Source: Thelephora terrestris
Taxonomy: Eukaryota > Basidiomycota > Agaricomycetes > Thelephorales > Thelephoraceae
Direction of reading: 5' to 3'
Length of the DNA: 64,000 bases
Assembly (NCBI GenBank): GCA_015956445.1
Contig: WIUZ02000014.1
Coordinates: 1 to 64,000, forward strand
Within the stretch, counting starts at the first letter, position 1. The number at the start of each line of letters is the position of its first letter. A program made the position numbers and the translations under genes. The notes beneath the pieces are model-generated. The model searched no databases. It was not told the origin of the DNA and saw only the letters and a list, made by a program, of their open reading frames with translations. Shown piece by piece: positions 31,960 through 64,000 of this stretch.

Positions 31960-34068
31960 TTATTTACTACACCCAACAGCTTTTGCATCTTCTTCAGCTT
32001 GCAATTGCAGCGTCCGATACCAGTCAATGACTTTTGGGTGTGCTTTTACCTAGCGGGGTTCGAGAAATAAGCACAACCTTTAGCCTCCCGAGCAATGATC
32101 ACAAAGCCCTTACCTTCATTGGGTCAAAATGGATGACTTGCAAACCGTCTAACGCTGATGCCCGTGACAAAGCCACATAGCTCTGGCCTGGTGATCTGAG
32201 TTTTAGCCATTTCTACAAAAGGAGGCACACGAAAGGGATCTGACCATTTTCAAAAACATTTGCAAGGTCTATCTTCACGTACTGAAGGGTTTGACCTTGG
32301 CTCTTGTGTATTGACATTGCCCAAGCAAGGATCAATGGGATCTGCGATTCGATGTCAACAAGTAGACCCAACCACAAAGCGGTCGCTCACCTGAACACGC
32401 CTAGCAACAACAGTCCCGTCGCTATCCTCGACCTTGAACTCATCTCTCCCCACCAGCACAGCCTCCTTCCCGGAGTTCGTCCGAAATTCTACCAGAGGAA
32501 ACTTCTCGGCGGAAACTGACCGGCTAATCTTCGACTTGGGTCTCGAGTTGTTCTTCTCGTACTCCCTCTCCATGTCCTCCCATTCTGCCGGCGTCTTCCC
32601 ATCGTTCTGGAGCAGCACTCTCCTGATGAACCCGTTGCCACATATGGGAGATATATCTCCCTCTGAACCGCAGACCTCAGAGGAAGAATAGAACCCCAGC
32701 ACCTTGCCAATGGACCCGTTGACCAGGTTCTCGTCCACGTTCTTGATGAGCATTACCTGAGCGTCAACCTTGATCTCGAGGACATGGGGGGCAACCATGT
32801 TCTTCAGGATTGTTGCCCTGTGCTCTTGGTTCTCTGAACCACTGTCCCGTGACGTGTAAATTGTTGACCCGGTCCCGAGCGCGTCCAACCTTGTCTTGTT
32901 TGCGTTTTCAACTTGGTTTCTCAGCGGAAACAACTCCGTTGGGACAATTCCATCAATCGCTGGAAGCGGACGCCCAAGACTCTTAAACATGGCAGCTGCA
33001 GCCTGTGAAGCCACACCCATCCTTAGGGTGTTTAGGAGATGGACAAAATCTGGGGGGAAATGTTAAGAACACGGCAGGTTTGAGGGGGGACCTACGACGA
33101 ACTGCTGTCTTTTTGCCGAAATACCTGGGTAAGGGTGACTGTGTGCTCGACACATTTCTTCCACTCTGCGCTTTCGAAAGCAAAGAATGGTTCGGCATTG
33201 CCTTTGGTAACCGGGGGCAATTGAAAAAAGTCGCCAGTAACCACCAACTGTGAGGTTCACGTGTTAACGTTACGTTGCAGAGGTGAGGGTGGTTGTAAAG
33301 AGTGGAACGTGCCTGTATGCCACCAAAAGGCCTTTCTGCACTTTTCCGTAGCTTCTGGGACAAGATATCGAATAGGTGTCCGTCGACCATGGAAACTAGA
33401 CCTCCAATTTATTCCTGCATTGTCAGGAGAGATCAGATCCTTGCCGCTCACCCTCGTCAATTATCAACACTTTGGTGGTTTTCCACCGATGTAGCGCTGG
33501 TTTACACCTTCGTATGCACTTGATTTGTTTCGCGAGATCGGTTTGTCCTGGTGTGACTGCTCCCCAGGAATGAATAGTCAATCCTGTAAAACATCGTGTG
33601 ACCAGGTCAGGGGACAAATCCACAAGGTGTGAGAAACAGCTCCAGAGCACACCGCCGATGTTTGAAGCAGCCATCCCGGTGCTAGCGGTGACGGAAATCA
33701 CAGCAGGATCCTTGGCGTGTTTCTTTCTCAAAGCTGAAATAATGGCTCTGAGTAGTAGGGATTTTCCGCTCCCTGAATGGCCAAACACACCAAATCAACA
33801 AACGACAGATGGTATGACTGTGGATGGATCACGCACCTGCAGCTCCGGTGAAAAATAGATTCCTCCCCTCGTCCACCACCATCTCCAATACCTTCTTCTG
33901 CTCGCTGTTAAGTGGGGCCGCTTGGCTTTCTTTCTCCTTTAGCCCCAAAGTAACACGGTGCAGTGGTTGGAAGTAACTGGTGATTTTCTTCATTGGCCTG
34001 TCGGAACCACCAGCTTGTAGCTTTCGCTTCTTCAAGGACGAGGGCCCGGAATTGTTGGATTGCGGCAT
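31960..34068 (-). CDS. pif1: Pif1-family DNA helicase, 566 residues
   Basis: A 5'-to-3' DNA helicase of superfamily 1B, the family that unwinds G-quadruplexes, removes telomerase and maintains mitochondrial DNA. Eight exons: 34068-33837, 33772-33452, 33395-33313, 33247-33103, 33049-32391, 32341-32245, 32187-32114 and 32049-31960; every frame fits. Motifs in order: Walker A GAAGSGKS (about residue 76-83), [18 protein letters not shown] with VSMVDG (motif II), [10 protein letters not shown] (III), LTQVFRQKD (IV), [11 protein letters not shown] (V) and [11 protein letters not shown] (VI). The Pif1 signature lies between II and III. KKITSYF at residues 27-33 resembles a PCNA-binding box. The third intron has GC-AG ends (CAG/GCACGT). 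Length and motif set are complete, so the protein should be active. It is divergent from the RecQ-type gene. Confidence 0.93.
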
Positions 34069-35161
34069 TGTGGGCGTGTCGAAACACCCTCAAGCTAGGC
34101 TGGTTACGGATGCAGGGGAGAGCAAGAGTGCCTGCCGGTAATGGGGAAGAGCGTGTCACCTGTTGTCTGCTGTGATTCATCCCCGATTGAACTTCGACCC
34201 CGTGAGAGAAAGAATCATAGCCCTGGTTTATTCCGTGTGCACTCACAAGAATCAGCAGTGTCTCTGAAACACTGATGTGTTCCGTGGTCCCGTGCAACGT
34301 GGTCAGCCCATGCAAACCAATGGCGACGCCGCCGAACGGCGAGCTGACACAGGTGCCTGGCGTTTCCATCGGCTGCCACGCCAAAAAACCAAACTAGCAA
34401 CTCCACTAGTAAATTGGACTCCGCAGTGAGGTTGTTGGGCGCTTTCCCAAAAAGTATACTTTTGGCGAACGGAGAAGTCCCGATCATGATCCTGCCCCAC
34501 AGCGCTTAATTACCACACATTCAATTGCATCCGCCTCCGTAACTGCGGGGAAGGCACACGGAGTCTCCGAGATCCGTGGAGTTCTTCTGAGGCTTTTTTC
34601 CCGACCGCTCTACTTCTGTGGGAACCTTCTAGCAGACAGGGGCCCGAACCTTTGGTTTGCCAAAAGGTTTACCGATTGGCAACCGATAGACCCTGGAGCA
34701 GAGGCCAATCTACTGGCCAAGGCACCGTTTTCCAACGGAATTTCTGTGGAGACCTCTAGCAGACAGGGGCCCGAACCTTTGGTTTGCCAAAAGGTTTACC
34801 GATTGGCAAACCGCTAGACCCTGGAGTAAAGGCCAATCAACTGGGCAAGGCGCCATTTCTCAACGGACTTTGGACCCAGCGGGGCTTTATCGCTAAATGC
34901 TGCCTTCCATCTGCCTGTCGGTCACGAAATAGTCCGCGTTACAGGTTCAGTTCCCCTTTTGAAGTTCGCGTTCCTTTGTCCAGCCGGCCTGCCATGTAGG
35001 AACTCTTCTGTTATCAGATGGCCATTCTGCCCTGTGTATGCCTTAAAAGTGCAGACCTCTGGCTTACTGCCTTACCTATCCTTTTTGCCTCGTCTCCCCT
35101 ACCTGTCTTGTCTACCCTTACTGCCTAGCCCACCGCTCCTGCCTGGCCTATCCTGTGCACA
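34069..35161. promoter_or_regulatory. Divergent promoter between the two helicase genes
   Basis: About 1.1 kb separates the pif1 start (minus) from the RecQ-type start (plus). It contains a two-copy 127-bp tandem repeat (separate entry). The 60 bp before the plus-strand start are strongly pyrimidine-rich (CCTACCTGTCTTGTCTACCC). Minus-strand frames of 90-158 codons at 33.9-34.5 kb overlap pif1 exon 1 in another frame and look like shadows. Confidence 0.45.
34614..34868. repeat. 127-bp tandem duplication with dyad
   Basis: Two copies, 34614-34740 and 34741-34868, share CTAGCAGACAGGGGCCCG and GGTTTGCCAAAAGGTTTACC. Copy 2 holds a perfect dyad GGTTTGCCAA / TTGGCAAACC; copy 1 has lost one base of it. 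The repeat lies in the shared promoter region of the two helicase genes. Confidence 0.9.
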
Positions 35162-38100
35162 ATGTCGACAACCAGTAAGCGAAGGCCTCAAGTCGTTCAT
35201 TTCATCCGATGTGCTAATCTATCTCTGCAGCCCCCAAAAACACCTTTTGCATCGTGTGCAAGAAGGATTTCAGCAACTACAAGAGCCTCCAAAACCATTT
35301 TCGATCCCAACATGCCCCTCTTTACGTCACCGACTCTGGTGAGTTTCGTTAGCTCAGCCCACCTCCTCACGACAAGTAGCTCACCTTGTTGCTAGCTGGC
35401 ACCTACCTTCTCACCAGGCCAGAGGGTAAGGGGGGTGTCTTGTGTCACCTGTGCAAAATACCTTGTGCTACCGCGTACCCACTAATCAAACGACACTATG
35501 AGGATGGCCACAAGCTGTCTGTCACCGTCTCTTCGGTACTCCACAAGCAGCGTCCCCTCCCGAGGTCACTGGCGTCCCGGCCAGCCCAGTCAACCACCGA
35601 AGATTTTGATATGGAAGATGACGATGAATCCATGTCGATCGATGTTCCCTCCCATTCTTTCGATGAAACCATAGAACCTTCCGAGCCAGGGACAGATGAA
35701 GAGGACGGGTGGGAACTAGGTTCCTCTTACTCAGATGCATCTACCGAAGCATTTGTGGGAGAAGATTGGGACGACGTCGTTCCCCCCTCCTTCCATTTCT
35801 CTGTTCACATTCCCTCTCCCCCCAACGACGAGGAACCCGAATTCAACGAGAACTCAGCAGAACTTGCCCCAAAACCAGATGACAAGGCCACCTCTGGCTC
35901 GGGTTGGGCGTGTGGGTCGGATAGTGAGTCTTTCATCTAAACGCCTCTGCATAGACCACTGCTAATCCAGTCTGCTCAGAACTGTGCTACGATCAGCCAC
36001 TCTGCAATTTCGGCTACGCCCTTAATGAAGAGGTTAAGGCAATCATTTGCATTGTTTGTCGCCGTGGCGTTCCTCTGGACATGCTCCACTCACACTCGAA
36101 GGTTCACCATCCCGGAAGATCTGTTCTGCCTTCTGGACAGCAGGCAACAGTGGTTGAACCACTCTCCAGCGGTGGTTACCGTAGCTCCAAGGCCAAAAAA
36201 TACCACCAGCCTGCCCGACAAAGGCCTGTGGATGGGTTGGAGATCCTCAAAGGCTTCCTGTGCCCAGTCCTAGACAATGGCTCGCCGTGTGACATGGCTT
36301 TTGTTGCACAGTCAACATTCACTCGCCACCTGTCTGATCACGCCGGGACTCGTGGAAGCAAACTGGACCCGCCTTCATGCACCTCCTATGTCCAGACCCT
36401 ATTCCACCAAGGAGGGCTACAGAGTTACTTTGCCATTGATCCCTCTCTTTCCAATGCAGATCCCTCGTCCGCTTCTGCCTATGCCCATGCTGTTAGGATG
36501 CTCCAAACCATTCCAAAACCCAACATTCCCATCTCAGACAACGACAAAGACCGCGCTTCAATCCATTGGCTCACCAGGTGGCCAGAACTTCTCAAACCAT
36601 ATACCACCAACAGGGAGAGTGTCGGTTTCCTCAGGTCATTGGTCTCCTTTCCTGACCCCAGCTCTGATCCGCAGTGGCTCACACAACTTCATGACCACGG
36701 GTCCCGTTGGTGGAAAGACGCAGAGGCTGCACACGTCAGCTGCTCTTGGAACGTCTCAATCATGTTGAAGTCCCACGAACAGTAAGCTACCCCCTTTTAT
36801 CCCTCAAAAAAACCACTAAATGTTGCCGTTCAGGTACATGGGTGCTTGGAAGGTGCTCCGCGAGCCTGACAGCGCTCGACGTTATTGTGGAACAGCGATA
36901 TCCCTTCTCGCTTTCTGCCTCAGAGCCTGTTTTCTACCGACGACTGCCACCCCGACTCGGTTCACCGATGAGCAGCTTGAAACGCTCAAGGACTACAAGG
37001 AGTACCTGACATCAGTTGTCGATTCATCAGCTGCAGATGTTGAGAGGTTTCAAACGGCTCTTTTTTCTGTCTTGTTCCGAAAGCCTGGGCTCAATATCGC
37101 TCCAGCCGGCCGTCTATCCTGCCCCGTTCAGTCCTACCTTGCTCTGGTTTCACTTCGAACCATTGGTGACTTTGTCAAGCCTGGTCTCGTCACCCAACCA
37201 ATATCAAGGTTGATGTACCTTTCGAGGGGTGCGATCCTTCAAGCCGCCCTTCGTGAACATGACAACGCCGAAGGGATCACAAGGCAAGCCACCCATTGGG
37301 TGTTCAGATCTAACCCGCTGATCATCTCCCCCTGCAGGACCGTCAAGGTGTTGTGTGAAAAGCATCTTGGGATGGGAGAGGGTAAAATTTCCGACGAGCT
37401 TATCTCCTTGAGGAAATATGCGTCTTCCTTGGCCCTCAGGGAACCTGGCAATCCCAGCATCCTATATAACCCGGACTACACCGCACTCGCATTTCGGGGA
37501 CAGAACTTGTCTTTCTCCAACCTTCAACTGGGGCTGAACCAGCTGATACAAGACACCTGGACTCGACTTCTGGCGTTCACCAAAAACAAGATCGAAGTTG
37601 TGCTTCCTCCCTTGATGTCCGAGGACGTTCGTTCAACCGCTGTTGGCAAATCGTTCATAGACGAGATTACAACCAACCCACCCACCCTCCCACTTCTATT
37701 CGCAATGTCTGAATGTTCTGGATTGCCGCTCCTCAGACCCAAGGCCCAAGTTGGTGACGGGGAGATGTTCGAGGTGGACCCAAGTGCATCGGAGGAGTTC
37801 TTCCACAGGATCAAGCCTATTGTCGAGGCTATCGCCTTCCTGGTACATACCACCAGCTCTGGGCCTCTCCGGCTTTCGGAAGTCGTTGAAGACCGGTATC
37901 GCAATGGTTCTAACCAACAGAACCTCCTTATATCACACGGACTTGTGTTCCTCCTTCGGAGGAACCTGAAGTCCTCTACTCTACGAGGACACAGGTCGTC
38001 GGTGATACACTTTCCCCCCAGAAAGGTTGTGGAGCTGCTAGTCTATTACCTTGTGGTGTTCCGCCCGGTCGAGGTTTTTCTCGCTGCAAGCTTGGGATGG

Positions 38101-40873
38101 GCGGATCAACATGCCGCATACGCCCAGTTTCTATGGGTTGTGAAGGGACAGAAGTTGAAACCACAAGGGTTGACTGACATTGTCGCACGCCATACTGATC
38201 GCTACTTCAAATGCAGACTTACTGGATCGCAACTTCGTCATGTGCTCATCAACATCCAGTCTGTCTTCCTTCCCCCAATCATCGACCCCTCCGTTCAGAA
38301 ATTGGGTGATTCTCAGGCGGGCCATGGGTCCAACATTGCTAACCGTGTTTATGGACAGCGAATTGACCACCTGCCTGGTGAGGAGGCTGCCATGTTTACA
38401 TTGACTTACCACTGGTGTCAGAGAGTACACTCTCTTCTTGGTCTTGGCCAGGAGGACCCACCAATCCGCCCTCTACCACACCTATTTGCGCCCTTCCAGC
38501 AGGTGTCTCCATCTGGTCATGCAGCACCTCATTCCCCTTCTTCCGACGACATCATGAGGCAGGTACACCATGCACTGAACTCTGGATTCTCTTTTGCCAC
38601 CCAGGAGCTTGCAAAGCATTGCGAAAAGGTCCTGAAGGAGTCGATTTTGCAGGTAGTTGGGCCTGCCCTTGCTTCAATTGGTTCCTCTGGGTCTGCAACC
38701 GCTGGACCCTCCTCATTTGCGCAAGACTACCCTCCAGCCCCACCAACAGCAGTGAGTTTGCAATCAAAAACTTTCTGCCTGTGGTTGACCGGCTCTCTAT
38801 AGTTGGATATTGACCTTGTCTGTGAGCAACAGGCACCCACCATCACAGAAGATCACCTGCTCCGAACCCTGTCGCTCTATACAAGACAAGCGGGGTCCAC
38901 CTTCACCAGTCAAAATCAGCGGCTCCTTCTCCAAGCAGTCCTTGAAGGGGGATATGACGCTGTCATGGGAATTTTACCCACAGGCTCTGGAAAGTCAATC
39001 GCGATCTTTGGTCCCGTACTTGCTGAAAGTTCTGGGACTTCCGTGGTCATCACCTGCTATGCAGCCCTTTGTCGCCAGCTTGCCGAGCAGGCGCGCTTCC
39101 TTGGGATCAGTCATCTCGTCTGGAGTGACAGGAACCTTGATGGCAGCCCCAACTGTGCATCTGTACGACTGGTCATAATGATAGCTGACGACATGGTTTC
39201 CGATGAAGCGAAAAGGCAAGCAGGTTTCATTCAACACACATCAGCCATGCTCATTTTACTCTAGGTTTATTGAGAGCAATTCCGTTGTTCGAATCGTCTT
39301 GGACGAAGCGCATTCAGCCTTCTTATCCCAATATCGGCCAGTTATGCAGTCCCTCGTCAACCTCAAGAAAGCCACAGTCCAAAGGGTTTTACTCACTGCA
39401 ACCCTCATCCCAGAGCATGAACCGGTTCTCAAGGAACACGTCGGGATACCTGCCTCTGCACGAACACTGGTATTGTGTTCTCCAACCGCGCGTTCCAATC
39501 ATCGGCTGCAAATGCCTCTCATACAAGCTCCCAAGTCGGTCTTCGACGTGGGTACTCAACTGGCTTCCATCCTACTTGACTCTTGGGGCGAGGATCCAGC
39601 AGTGCGAGGGATAATATTCGTTCGGTCCATTGCAAAGCTGGAGGAATTTAGCGAGTCCTGCACCTTCCCTGTTTGCACATTCCACGGCCGCATGTCCGAG
39701 GAAAACAAGGAAAATCAGTTCACCTCCTGGCTCTCCAACAAACACCCAGCAAAGTGGATGGTGTCAACTACGGCACTCCTCCACGGTGTCGACTATCCTC
39801 GCGTTGACGCCGTCGTGTTCCTGCAGTGTCCCTTCGGCTTGTACGACTTTGTCCAAGGAGCAGGCCGGGCTGGTAGATCCGGCCAAGATTCTCTGGTGGC
39901 CATTCTCCACAACGGCACTTCCCCCACCATGCCAACCGAGAACGTGTACGATTGTCGGCCAGTGATGAAGCGAATCATCACCGCCGCGAGATGTCGACGC
40001 CTTGGTATCTCCGAAGTTATGGACGGTATAGGGGTGCCTTGTTCCGAACTCCCGAACTCACTTCTGTGTGACTTCTGTGAGGGAAGTGTCCACCCGCTCA
40101 TTGCAAAGGCAATAAACCAACCCTCCCAATCCCCGCCTCAAGGGACTACCTGTTTGGATAGACCCATGAACACCCCCTTGACAACTCAGCCAACGTCCAT
40201 CCTCCAGGTTCCAACGAACACTCCACCTTTGGCCTCCGTGCAACCAATCAGTCCCCCTGCTACCCCCCTTTCCTTACCTCCCCCCACACCCTCCCTGGCC
40301 ACGCAGCTCAGCGGATATACGGCTCAGTCGAACGCCGACAACCAAAAAGAACACGCGCAGCAAATCAGACAGCTGATGGAGCGTTTCGGCGGATGCTTCG
40401 CTTGCCGAATCAAGTCCGACACCCATGGCCCTTGCCACGTCCAATGCGGTAGCAGCGGGGCGTCCGGCTGCTCGGTCGATAGACACCTGGCCTTCTCTTG
40501 CACGGACTTCCCCCACAAGTACGGATGGATCGATTGGAAAGCATCTCACTTCAGGTGGGACAGGAGTGTTCACAGATGCTATTTCTGCGGGCTTCCTTCT
40601 ATCGTGACTGGTCCCTACCACAGAGAGAAGAATGTGCACAAGTTTCCTGGAAAATGCCTGTTCAGTGACACCGCAGTTGTCGCAGCATGGCACGTCTTAC
40701 ACACCCCTGAACTATTTCAACTGCTCCAAAAAGAGTTGGGGTTTACTCCCGGACCAGATGCACCCAGTAGCTTTGCAAAATGGCTGATGGAGCAGCAGTC
40801 ACCCAAGGAGGATATTGGACTCCTGCGCGTGTTTTCCTGGCTCTGCAATCACTACTACCGCAGTTCTTTCTAG
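35162..40873 (+). CDS. Zinc-finger / tyrosine-recombinase-like / RecQ-type helicase, 1,796 residues
   Basis: Seven exons: 35162-35174, 35231-35338, 35396-35923, 35980-36781, 36834-38751, 38803-39215 and 39265-40873; all frames fit. N-terminus: two C2H2 fingers (FCIVCKKDF..HFRSQH and LCHLCKIP..HYEDGH), then an OrsD-like pair (ICIVCRRGVPLDMLHSHSK and FLCPVL..C..FTRHLSDH). Residues about 820-990 carry a tyrosine-recombinase pattern: GPLRLSEV (Arg about 829), QLRHVLI (about 950) and QAGHGSNIANRVYG, with His about 979 and Tyr nine residues later, the spacing of XerD/Cre. The first His of the HxxR box is replaced. From about 1,150 on is a RecQ-type helicase: LPTGSGKS, VLDEAHSAF, LLTATL, CTFHGRMSEENK, HGVDYPRVDAVV and QGAGRAGRSGQDS. 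A Cys/His-rich tail follows (CFACR..C..C; CYFCGLP). The sixth intron is GC-AG. OrsD-RecQ proteins are known in fungi, including telomere-linked helicases; the recombinase reading is inference. Confidence 0.85.
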
Positions 40874-61506: not shown

Positions 61507-62645
61507 CGTCGGGGACCAGACATGGGAACGTGGGAAAATGTTTCCCGTTCCATCAGACAGATGCGCTACAGGGAACATGGGAACCGTGGAAAAGTATTTC
61601 CTGACCAGAACAATCAGAAAGGCACGATTCCCGGGCAGACGCGCTGCACCAGACATGGGAACCGTGGGAAAATGTTTCCCGTTCCATCAGGCAGACATGC
61701 TGCGGGGAATGTGGGAACCGTGGAAAAGTATTTCCTGTCCAGAACAATCAGAAAGGCACAATCAGAAAGGCACGATTCCCTGGCAGACGCGCTGCACCAG
61801 ACAGGGAACTGTGGGAACATGTTTCCCATTCCATCAGGAAGACGCGCTGTGGGCAGGGAACATGGGAACTGTGGAAAAGTATTTCCTGTTCCAGAACAAT
61901 CAGAAAGGTTCCATGCCCGGGCAAACGCGCACGGGACGTGGGAACCGTGGGAAGATGTTTCCCATTCCATAATGGTGCCAGGCAGACGCACGCGGGGAAC
62001 ATGGGAACCGTGGAAATGTATTTCCTCTTACAAAACGGGCAGAAAGGCAGGAACCGTGGGAAAATGTTTCCCGTTCCATCAGGCAGACATGCTGCGGGGA
62101 ACGTGGGAACTGTGGAAAAGTATTTCCTGTTCCAGAACAATTGGAAAGGCACGATTCCCGGGCAGACGCGCTGCACCAGACATGGGAACCGTGGGAAAAT
62201 GTTTCCCATTCCATCAGGCAGACATGTTGCGGGGAACGTGGGAACCGTGGAAAAGTATTTCCTGTTCCAGAACAATCGGAAAGGCACGATTCCCGGGCAA
62301 ACGCGCACGGGACGTGGGAACCGTGGGAAGATGTTTTCCGTATCATAACGGCACTTGCCAGGCAGACGCACGCGGGGAACATGGGAACCGTGGAAATGTA
62401 TTTCCTCTTCCAGAACGGGCAGAAAGGCACGACCGCACTGCAAACCGTGGGAAAATATTTCCCGTTCCAGAACAGCACGCACCCAGACGTGCTACAGGCA
62501 ATGTAGAAACCGTGGGAAAATATTTCTGGTTGCAGAATGGCACCGGAGGCATGATCTGCCGGCATTGCCGGGGCAGACGCGCTGCGAAACGTGGGAACAT
62601 ATTTCCTGTTGTGGAAGGAGCGATCGGTGCGACGGGCGCCAGATA
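61507..62645 (+). repeat. Hairpin-rich array of about 130-bp units
   Basis: About eight to nine composite units, each of two related halves of about 65 bp. One half reads GGGAACCGTGGGAAAATGTT then TCCCGTTCC; the other reads GGGAACCGTGGAAAAGTATT then TCCTGTTCCAGAAC, followed by GAAAGGCACGATTCCCGGG. Each half centres on a near-palindrome (GGGAAA-N3-TTTCCC or GGAAA-N4-TTTCC). Starts of the first half lie near 61,518, 61,656, 61,800, 61,936, 62,050, 62,181, 62,314 and 62,440. Copies differ by point changes and small deletions. Long frames are open on both strands (421 codons on plus) as a by-product of the unit composition. Confidence 0.9.
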
Positions 62646-62843: not shown

Positions 62844-64000
62844 TGCATATTACATGCCACATGGTACACTAGATATGAAGGTTCTCTGGAGCTACTTCTT
62901 TCCAAATTTTGCCGGCCTATTCAACCCCATTTGGTAACTGATATACAGACCAAGCAGCCAGATCAATTTACCCACGCCTCTTGACTCTGAACCACCACCA
63001 TCTATGCACCAGAGCAACCACCCTTTGAAAAGTAGCATCTTTCTCCCCTGTTGAAATAGTGCTTGCACTTATCATTGGCCAAAACCTATCCAGATGTCAG
63101 CTCCTACAAAACAAAAAGCCATAAATAAAAAGCCTGCGCCTCCAGAGGGGGATGCCATTGTGCTTGAGATACATAGAAATGTGGGTGTGAGTAATATGTC
63201 TCAATGAATGTAATTTCATCACTGATGGGTTACCTCTAGTCCTCAATCACTGCCAACAACACTCTCTCTGCTCAGATGAGCAAAAGAGTGGGCTTGTCCC
63301 CAAGGCTTTCCTGGGTTATGCAAGAGTGAATCTTGTTGATGACCCTGTTCCCAAGCCAGGGTAGGCCAATGGAGTCTCCCTAGATCAGACTCACTCAAGG
63401 CTCTCAAACCCTTCATCCCTCTTTACAATATCCATTACTGGGTTGCTGGTAGAAACTTTAGCATATTCTAGTGCATTCCAGCATGTTTCAAAGGATTCTA
63501 CAACTTTCCGTGAACTTCCAAGCTTGTTTAATTTCTTATCTTATCTTATCTTATTCATCAATGAACAAATCATTTTTATTCTTTGAATAATTTGAATAAT
63601 CTGTTTGGTCTGTTTGTTTGCTGTTTCCCCAGAATCTGATCTGTATCATATATTGTCATCATTGATTTCAATGACCTTGCCTCTTCACTCACCTATTGTC
63701 ACTAATATTGAAGTCTTCTTAGCACAGTCTTTGCTTCTGTTTCAGACTCAATAATATCACATGATATACAAATAATAAAAGTGGAACATAACTTCTACAA
63801 GTTGGGGACATCACTTCTAAAAGTGTGTACTTTTCTGTTTTTCACATTCTTTTCCAAAACATGTTGATTAAACCCAATTAAACCACTGGAACAGTAACTA
63901 GTCATTTTCCTGATGCAACAATCTTGGAATTGGCACTGTCAATTCCAAGATTGTTGATCAAATATAAATTTCACCCATCCACCAGAGTGTATTAGTGACA
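62844..64000. other. AT-rich, CpG-depleted tail, no gene
   Basis: No frame of note is present. By eye only about four CpG dinucleotides occur in nearly 1.2 kb, against dozens per kb elsewhere in the window. It includes a TTATC repeat (about 63,535-63,556) and a long hairpin at 63,911-63,960. It may be the edge of an old, methylated repeat whose body lies outside the window. Confidence 0.55.
63911..63960. repeat. Perfect 17-bp inverted repeat
   Basis: CAACAATCTTGGAATTG and its exact complement flank the 7-bp loop GCACTGT (63,933-63,939). Pairing continues outward as TGAT / ATCA with one bulged base. Confidence 0.9.

Follow-up and report, generated by a model that had tools for sequence, protein, structure and literature searches.

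A putative tyrosine-recombinase-like domain in a telomere-linked RecQ helicase gene of Thelephora terrestris

Gene model and protein layout

Positions 1-64,000 of contig WIUZ02000014.1 of Thelephora terrestris (assembly GCA_015956445.1; the contig is called C6 here, and the whole 64,000-nucleotide stretch the window) contain a gene for a protein of 1,787 amino acids. We consider it probable that this gene encodes a telomere-linked RecQ helicase (TLH, or UTAS type) and that a divergent tyrosine recombinase, its active site reading R-K-(S/N/K)xxR-H-Y, makes up the unannotated middle third of the protein. The parts of the gene and the proposed site residues are the following.

35162..40873, + strand: whole gene, 1,787 amino acids, 7 exons joined in a single open frame
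35162-35174, 35231-35338, 35423-35923, 35980-36781, 36834-38751, 38803-39215 and 39265-40873, + strand: exons
35231..36341, + strand: N-terminal finger region, introns included, with C2H2-like fingers seen by eye near residues 10-31 and 47-69 and OrsD (PF12013) at residues 222-328
37327..38499, + strand: middle domain, tyrosine-recombinase-like, residues 640-1030, putative catalytic core about 785-1025
37870..37872, + strand: Arg821, proposed ArgI (GPLRLSE), invariant in 5/5 lineages, placed by hhalign on XerD R148
37969..37971, + strand: Lys854, proposed beta-hairpin lysine, invariant in 5/5 lineages, not placed by hhalign on XerD K172
38227..38229, + strand: Ser940, at the place of the first His of HxxR (HisII), replaced; Ser, Ser, Asn, Ser and Lys in the five lineages
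38236..38238, + strand: Arg943, proposed ArgII (QLRH), invariant in 5/5 lineages, placed by hhalign on XerD R247
38323..38325, + strand: His972, proposed box III His (QAGH), invariant in 5/5 lineages, placed by hhalign on XerD H270
38350..38352, + strand: Tyr981, proposed nucleophile, His+9, invariant in 5/5 lineages, placed by hhalign on XerD Y279
38803..40150, + strand: RecQ-type superfamily 2 helicase core, spanning intron 39216-39264, with Pfam, NCBIfam and PDB matches; motifs seen by eye are Walker A PTGSGKS, DEAH and QGAGRAGR
40380..40760, + strand: Cys/His-rich C-terminal tail, seen by eye, similar in the paralogue C12

An earlier note on this DNA had described a single protein uniting OrsD-type fingers, a middle part and a RecQ helicase over seven exons, and the open frame of 1,787 amino acids together with the Pfam matches to OrsD, DEAD and Helicase_C bears this out. 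The frame opens with the ATG at 35162 and closes with the stop at 40873, and its introns measure 49-84 nt, five of them being GT-AG and the sixth (39216-39264) being read as GC-AG. A GT-AG alternative for the latter (39196-39244) leaves the frame likewise open; it was discarded because C12 has GTGAGC where the window gene has the GC donor, which fits a GT donor at this place. Within residues 1-330 the four C2H2/OrsD-like fingers of the earlier note can indeed be read by eye, and Pfam recovers OrsD at residues 222-328 slightly below its cut-off (E 2.4e-5, 25.2 bits against 26.6; 30.1 bits in the genome scan) and weak C2H2-type matches near residues 5-33, of which zf-C2H2_jaz (E 0.017) supports one finger. 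The helicase part matches DEAD (E 2.2e-12) and Helicase_C (E 7.1e-14); its top NCBIfam match is recQ TIGR01389 (E 1.4e-21, far below the equivalog cut-off of that family), and its nearest solved structure is the bacterial RecQ 4q47 (E 4.4e-11). After the helicase core one can read by eye a zinc motif resembling that of RecQ, CRR-x(n)-C-x(n)-CDFC; C12 and C14 have it too and C8a has a variant of it, and this CRR...C...C-D-x-C stretch is without a Pfam match. The Cys-rich tail that had been noticed behind the helicase is likewise present.

Between these parts, residues 329-1151 of the window protein have no Pfam match at E ≤ 10. It is in this interval that GPLRLSEV, QLRHVLI and QAGHGSNIANRVYG, the three motifs on which a recombinase had been proposed, begin at residues 818, 941 and 969, respectively; the residue numbers first given (829, 951, 979 and 988) run 7-8 too high, the residues themselves being identical.

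Conservation of the proposed active site

Tyrosine recombinases possess a beta-hairpin lysine and several boxes with named roles. The recombinase tetrad was defined after the accessible parts of PMC8371274 and PMC3212892, and the corresponding positions were compared among five lineages of the gene family, C6 (window), C12, C8a, C14 and C8b, which display 17-65% pairwise identity and all come from one genome. Set aside from these counts were C4, C8:637 kb, C10 and C11, which have ~99% DNA identity to C12 and are represented by it (the middle of C11 was aligned all the same), as well as the relics on C1, C60 and C4:1078 kb, the second copies on C19, C22 and C8:887 kb, and a broken OrsD match on C3.

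The order ArgI, ArgII, box III His and Tyr, with the Tyr at His+9, is found in 5/5 lineages, and the conservation of the Arg, Arg, His and Tyr residues, which the earlier note had left to be checked in homologues, holds among these lineages of one genome. Only 20 of the 241 columns of residues 785-1025 are invariant, and they include Arg821, Glu824, Lys854, Arg943, His972 and Tyr981. For the four residues named beforehand to be all among them, a hypergeometric draw (20 invariant of 241 columns) gives P 3.5e-5, a value for which composition matters, the invariant positions comprising 3/18 Arg, 2/13 His and 1/7 Tyr of the window protein in this region. When invariant residues were placed at random in 200,000 trials, a suitably spaced R-R-H-Y appeared in 3.7e-4 of them, and with the Lys in 7.5e-5, the spacing limits having been set after seeing the data. 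Moreover, the distance from the box III His (Trp in Cre) to the Tyr is 9 in all five lineages and in XerC, XerD, FimB, FimE, lambda Int and Cre.

The replacement of the first His of HxxR, already noticed in the window protein (Ser940), extends to the whole set, with Ser, Ser, Asn, Ser and Lys in the five lineages. It had been taken to suggest a regulatory or inactive protein. We favour neither of these readings, since HisII is the one site position that varies and the core changes most slowly of the three parts compared. Between the window and C12, with synonymous sites near saturation, the proportions of differing nonsynonymous and synonymous sites (pN and pS) were 0.179 and 0.756 in the core, 0.236 and 0.724 in residues 640-785, and 0.267 and 0.635 in a helicase stretch, so that of these parts the core shows the lowest pN. 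Furthermore, type IB topoisomerases function without HisII, and therefore its loss need not mean inactivity.

The replacement of this His in all five lineages can be read as the mark of a domesticated recombinase fold that only binds DNA or multimerises, the protein then serving in telomere maintenance or recombination, with its enzyme activity residing in the helicase. There is precedent in yeast, where a binding or multimerising role has been proposed for the Crypton-derived Ndc10/Cbf2 and Gcr1, and Crypton-derived genes have lost the catalytic site and may bind DNA, according to the available part of PMC3212892. In addition, among Ustilago telomerase-negative survivors of two strains, one TLH-like gene was up in both and others in one (PMC10532341, in excerpt). 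However, in a fold kept for binding alone one would expect drift at all five positions (R, K, R, H and Y), as reported for DUF3504 (PMC3212892, same part), whereas here they are invariant even at 17-28% identity, and we regard this explanation as unlikely.

Profile and structure comparisons

The middle domain was aligned with hhalign to a set of 84 recombinases, comprising 78 XerD-like sequences (a usable frame was present in 78/80 loci) and six known enzymes; nearly all relatives of Cre and lambda Int were too similar to one another for use. The alignment reached E 0.0079 (score 26.19) and, although the motif was not supplied, placed the R, R, H and Y of the middle domain on R148, R247, H270 and Y279 of XerD. 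Among 450 shuffled sequences the score was reached by 1, and in 6 at least four site residues out of six fell on the identical letter; among 1,200 further shuffles the score was reached by 6, all four core residues were placed by 0, and both together were achieved by 0. The score alone is weak and no proof of homology; stronger evidence comes from where the residues fall. Single lineages gave E 0.012 to 0.56, and the window with C12 alone 0.0016.

Several results weigh against a recombinase in the middle of this protein. With insert columns stripped, the hhalign score fell to 18.1 (E 0.12), below that of the reversed control (19.2), and shuffles of the stripped version reached 26.1 and 28.8. 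Other segments of the window protein gave E 0.074 (residues 401-640) to 0.5, and a plain recombinase hidden Markov model gave 0.047 (window), 0.12 (C12), 0.84 (C8a), 1.6 (C14) and 2.3 (C8b), as against 1.1 in the best of the reversed controls. A TelN-family profile (42 sequences) aligned out of register (E 0.53). Among established families, PF00589 was matched neither by the full window protein, nor by three lineages, nor in a six-frame genome scan at E ≤ 0.001; no Pfam recombinase family was found for the full window protein or for the middle of three lineages; and neither PHROGs nor NCBIfam gave a recombinase family for the middle of these lineages, NCBIfam returning one chance-level transporter match (E 0.14). 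These three-lineage scans left out C14 and C8b. A PDB search with the three-lineage profile likewise gave no recombinase, its one match (E 2) being an unrelated effector protein. As for the site itself, HisII is replaced throughout, Lys854 falls off XerD K172 in the hhalign alignment, and the spacings exceed those of the six known enzymes (R-K 33-35 vs 23-28, R-R 122-124 vs 95-119, R-H 29-31 vs 22-23). Finally, the conservation rests on one genome, within which all five lineages lie.

If the motifs had converged by chance, in a domain unrelated to recombinases within a TLH helicase of the ordinary kind, the missing family match and a borderline profile score that loses significance in the insert-stripped variant would be expected. 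What makes this very unlikely, in our view, is that five ordered residues with recombinase-like spacing are invariant and that the Arg, Arg, His and Tyr among them fall on their XerD counterparts with no motif supplied, a placement seen in 0/1,200 shuffles.

Two single-sequence AlphaFold predictions had a mean predicted local distance difference test score (pLDDT) of 36.7 and 36.4, and since they were made without an alignment they speak neither for nor against a fold. No relatives were found in viral contigs or in prokaryote genomes. The recombinase reading that the earlier note had given of the middle third is thus upheld in part: its Arg, Arg, His and Tyr are invariant in 5/5 lineages and in register with XerD, and for the fold itself there are a weak profile score and low-confidence models. 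The recombinase-like core appears well supported by its residues, structure and other species not being among its supports.

Gene family and chromosomal position

The genome compared comprises 40.6 Mb in 60 contigs, with the window at the left end of C6, and the family counts are lower bounds (best candidates scored). Group a pairs the window gene with a relic inside C1 that lies in oppositely oriented pieces, at 91-95% DNA identity. Group b has five copies, whose middle is 61-64% identical to that of the window protein and which share ~99% DNA identity among themselves:

C12: 13-15 kb off the left contig end
C4: 11-13 kb off the right contig end, 5' part missing
C11: 20-22 kb off the right contig end, interrupted
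C10: 31-36 kb off the right contig end, interrupted
C8:637 kb: contig interior

More distant members are C8a (group c; C8:725 kb, 27-28% identity), C14 with equal-scoring matches on C19 (group d; 18-21% to groups a-c), and C8b (C8:937 kb) with equal-scoring matches on C22 (group e; 17-23% to groups a-c and 36% to C14); C60 carries an additional relic of the middle-domain family. The order OrsD, middle, RecQ is common to C6, C12, C8a and C14, and in C8b, read over these two parts, OrsD and the middle are present.

Consistent with a TLH gene, the protein has a RecQ-type core, below the NCBIfam equivalog cut-offs, and the gene is multi-copy at chromosome ends: for five of the seven loci in groups a and b a contig end is no more than 40 kb away, and each of the five has its 5' side turned to that end. 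At most about 12% of the genome is that close to an end (60 contigs x 80 kb of 40.6 Mb), the copies being non-independent duplicates. Contigs C4 and C11 terminate in TTAGG-type tracts. Three points count against our main reading: no telomere tract was found at the near-gene ends of C6, C12 and C10 as read (3/5 near-end loci), two of the seven loci (C8:637 kb and the relic on C1) lie away from contig ends, and the centromere-side breakpoints vary between copies.

The two copies on contigs with telomere-like tract ends bear on the view that the protein is an active enzyme of the recombinase fold with another outcome, that is, a strand breaker on telomeres resembling a type IB topoisomerase or a telomere resolvase. 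An R-K-R-H-Y site without HisII, with Lys at that place in C8b, recalls type IB topoisomerases, and H-x8-Y is present in TelN. Nevertheless, the TelN-family profile was out of register (E 0.53) and ordinary TTAGG tracts close C4 and C11, which makes such an enzyme improbable.

C12 and C8 have ~16 kb in common at 99.4% identity, and in the compared pieces, whose flanks are partial, no common element ends or short terminal direct repeats were found. The breakpoints and shared blocks would fit an exchange among chromosome ends and do not amount to a demonstration of a discrete element. Ordinary subtelomeric recombination of large blocks alone, with the protein taking no part in its own spread, could account for this ~16-kb block and for copies that differ in their ends, and we give it slightly less than an even chance. 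Such recombination leaves the retained active site unexplained; it is compatible with the TLH-recombinase identity of the protein and with a recombinase acting on subtelomeres generally.

The copies on C10 and C11 are interrupted by insertions of ~2.9 and ~2.4 kb, and overlaps of 9 and 6 bases between the alignments on either side suggest target-site duplications. The right-end tracts of C4 and C11 consist mainly of the pentamer TTAGG with some TTAGGG, the latter being the usual fungal telomere repeat; the pentamer tracts could be real or an assembly effect. Exact matches to four TTAGG units number 1313 and 1301 on the two strands genome-wide, contig-end tracts included. Among the matches listed, telomere-like tracts also occur inside contigs, many as outward-facing pairs ~1-2 kb apart and some farther, and the sole pair read (C1:185280-186760) forms a long inverted repeat (fold-back) whose subterminal repeats are rich in CCTAA.

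Other features of the window

Upstream of the gene and divergent to it, coding pieces of a Pif1-like helicase can be seen by eye in several frames (32358-34089, - strand). A two-gene element including this Pif1-like gene was considered and dismissed, as the gene is absent from the stretches examined around the other copies. About 290-520 bases ahead of the start codon lies a 105-nt direct repeat (34639-34871, 71% identical, 128-nt spacing), one copy of which contains a 13-6-13 imperfect palindrome (34781-34812). We do not use this palindrome as evidence for a recombination site, because similar matches arise in shuffled sequence (4-12 in five shuffles against 18 overlapping ones in the window) and its 29-base core has two genome occurrences, both within the window. 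Tandem arrays with periods of 134-376 bases (GGAACCGTGGGAAAATGTTTCCC...) occupy 61514-62432, and at 63920-63952 the two 13-base arms of a perfect inverted repeat enclose a spacer of 7 bases.

Proposed mechanism

The data show the order of the domains, a site conserved in five lineages of one genome, a constrained core and several copies close to contig ends; the fold, catalysis, substrate and spread of the protein we infer, and it may cut and join its own DNA or be mobile. In the mechanism that we envisage, the C2H2/OrsD fingers would pick out a sequence close to chromosome ends, Tyr981 in the recombinase core would nick DNA and form a 3'-phosphotyrosyl link, followed by strand exchange, and the fused RecQ motor would unwind the site or branch-migrate a Holliday-junction intermediate, leading to exchange between chromosome ends. 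Taken as a whole, this scheme of fingers, Tyr981 nick and RecQ remodelling is tentative, and we hold it with more doubt than confidence. The same reserve applies to the broader proposal that all TLHs unite an active tyrosine recombinase with RecQ in one enzyme, a site-specific recombinase with a junction-remodelling motor of its own that moves or exchanges chromosome ends, and constitute a new kind of fungal mobile element or telomere-maintenance machine, which seems to us possible but rather doubtful. A nearly complete recombinase-like site, in a family known hitherto as helicases only, could explain the role of these chromosome-end genes and their spread between ends, and the role of subtelomeric RecQ genes would reduce to a direct question, namely, whether one tyrosine bonds to DNA. 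Such a site would connect the spread of subtelomeres with telomerase-free survival and with site-specific recombination. We know of no earlier recombinase fused to a RecQ motor.

Comparison with known systems

Starship captains (DUF3435) are the tyrosine recombinases of fungal mobile elements; the window protein has no Pfam match to DUF3435 at E ≤ 10 and is set apart from them by this profile only. Cryptons resemble it as eukaryotic proteins of the tyrosine-recombinase type in fungi. Those of fungi carry GCR1_C and mostly 6-bp terminal direct repeats, with no RecQ described in the part of PMC3212892 available, whereas the window protein has no Pfam match to GCR1_C at E ≤ 10.

Reports of subtelomeric RecQ genes, from several fungi, go back to 1998 (via the references of PMC7473861 and PMC5576322, both in excerpt). 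In Colletotrichum, elements with a helicase and DUF3505 occupy all 24 subtelomeres in a single orientation (PMC5576322, same excerpt), and in Ustilago, RecQ belongs to UTASa, whereas UTASb contains a conserved 'core' and/or an OrsD domain (PMC10532341, sections available). For the Agaricus genes, the portion of PMC7473861 at hand reports nothing beyond the helicase core. Subtelomeric RecQ genes are described in Zymoseptoria, where 'recombinase' occurs once in the accessible text, in a Crypton reference (PMC4522978), and TLH genes were not found in Trichoderma (PMC4812632, in part); in what is available of PMC10799480, the terms at issue occur in the reference list only. Among the open-licence PMC papers listed in our searches, 9-20 titles at a time, no title or abstract opening reports a tyrosine recombinase in a TLH protein, which is no proof of its absence from the literature.

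With the TLHs of Ustilago (UTASa/UTASb), Agaricus bisporus var. burnettii and Colletotrichum, the window gene shares the RecQ core, near-identical multiple copies at chromosome ends, a constant orientation and the association with OrsD/DUF3505 (PMC7473861, PMC5576322 and PMC10532341, as excerpted); the excerpted TLH descriptions contain no recombinase domain, and it is in this domain that the window protein differs. From the tyrosine recombinases XerC/D, lambda Int, Cre and FimB/E it differs by the replaced HisII, the longer other spacings, the fusion to fingers and RecQ, and the blindness of PF00589 to it, whereas it is like them in the order R...K...xxR...H-x8-Y and in the distance from the His to the Tyr.

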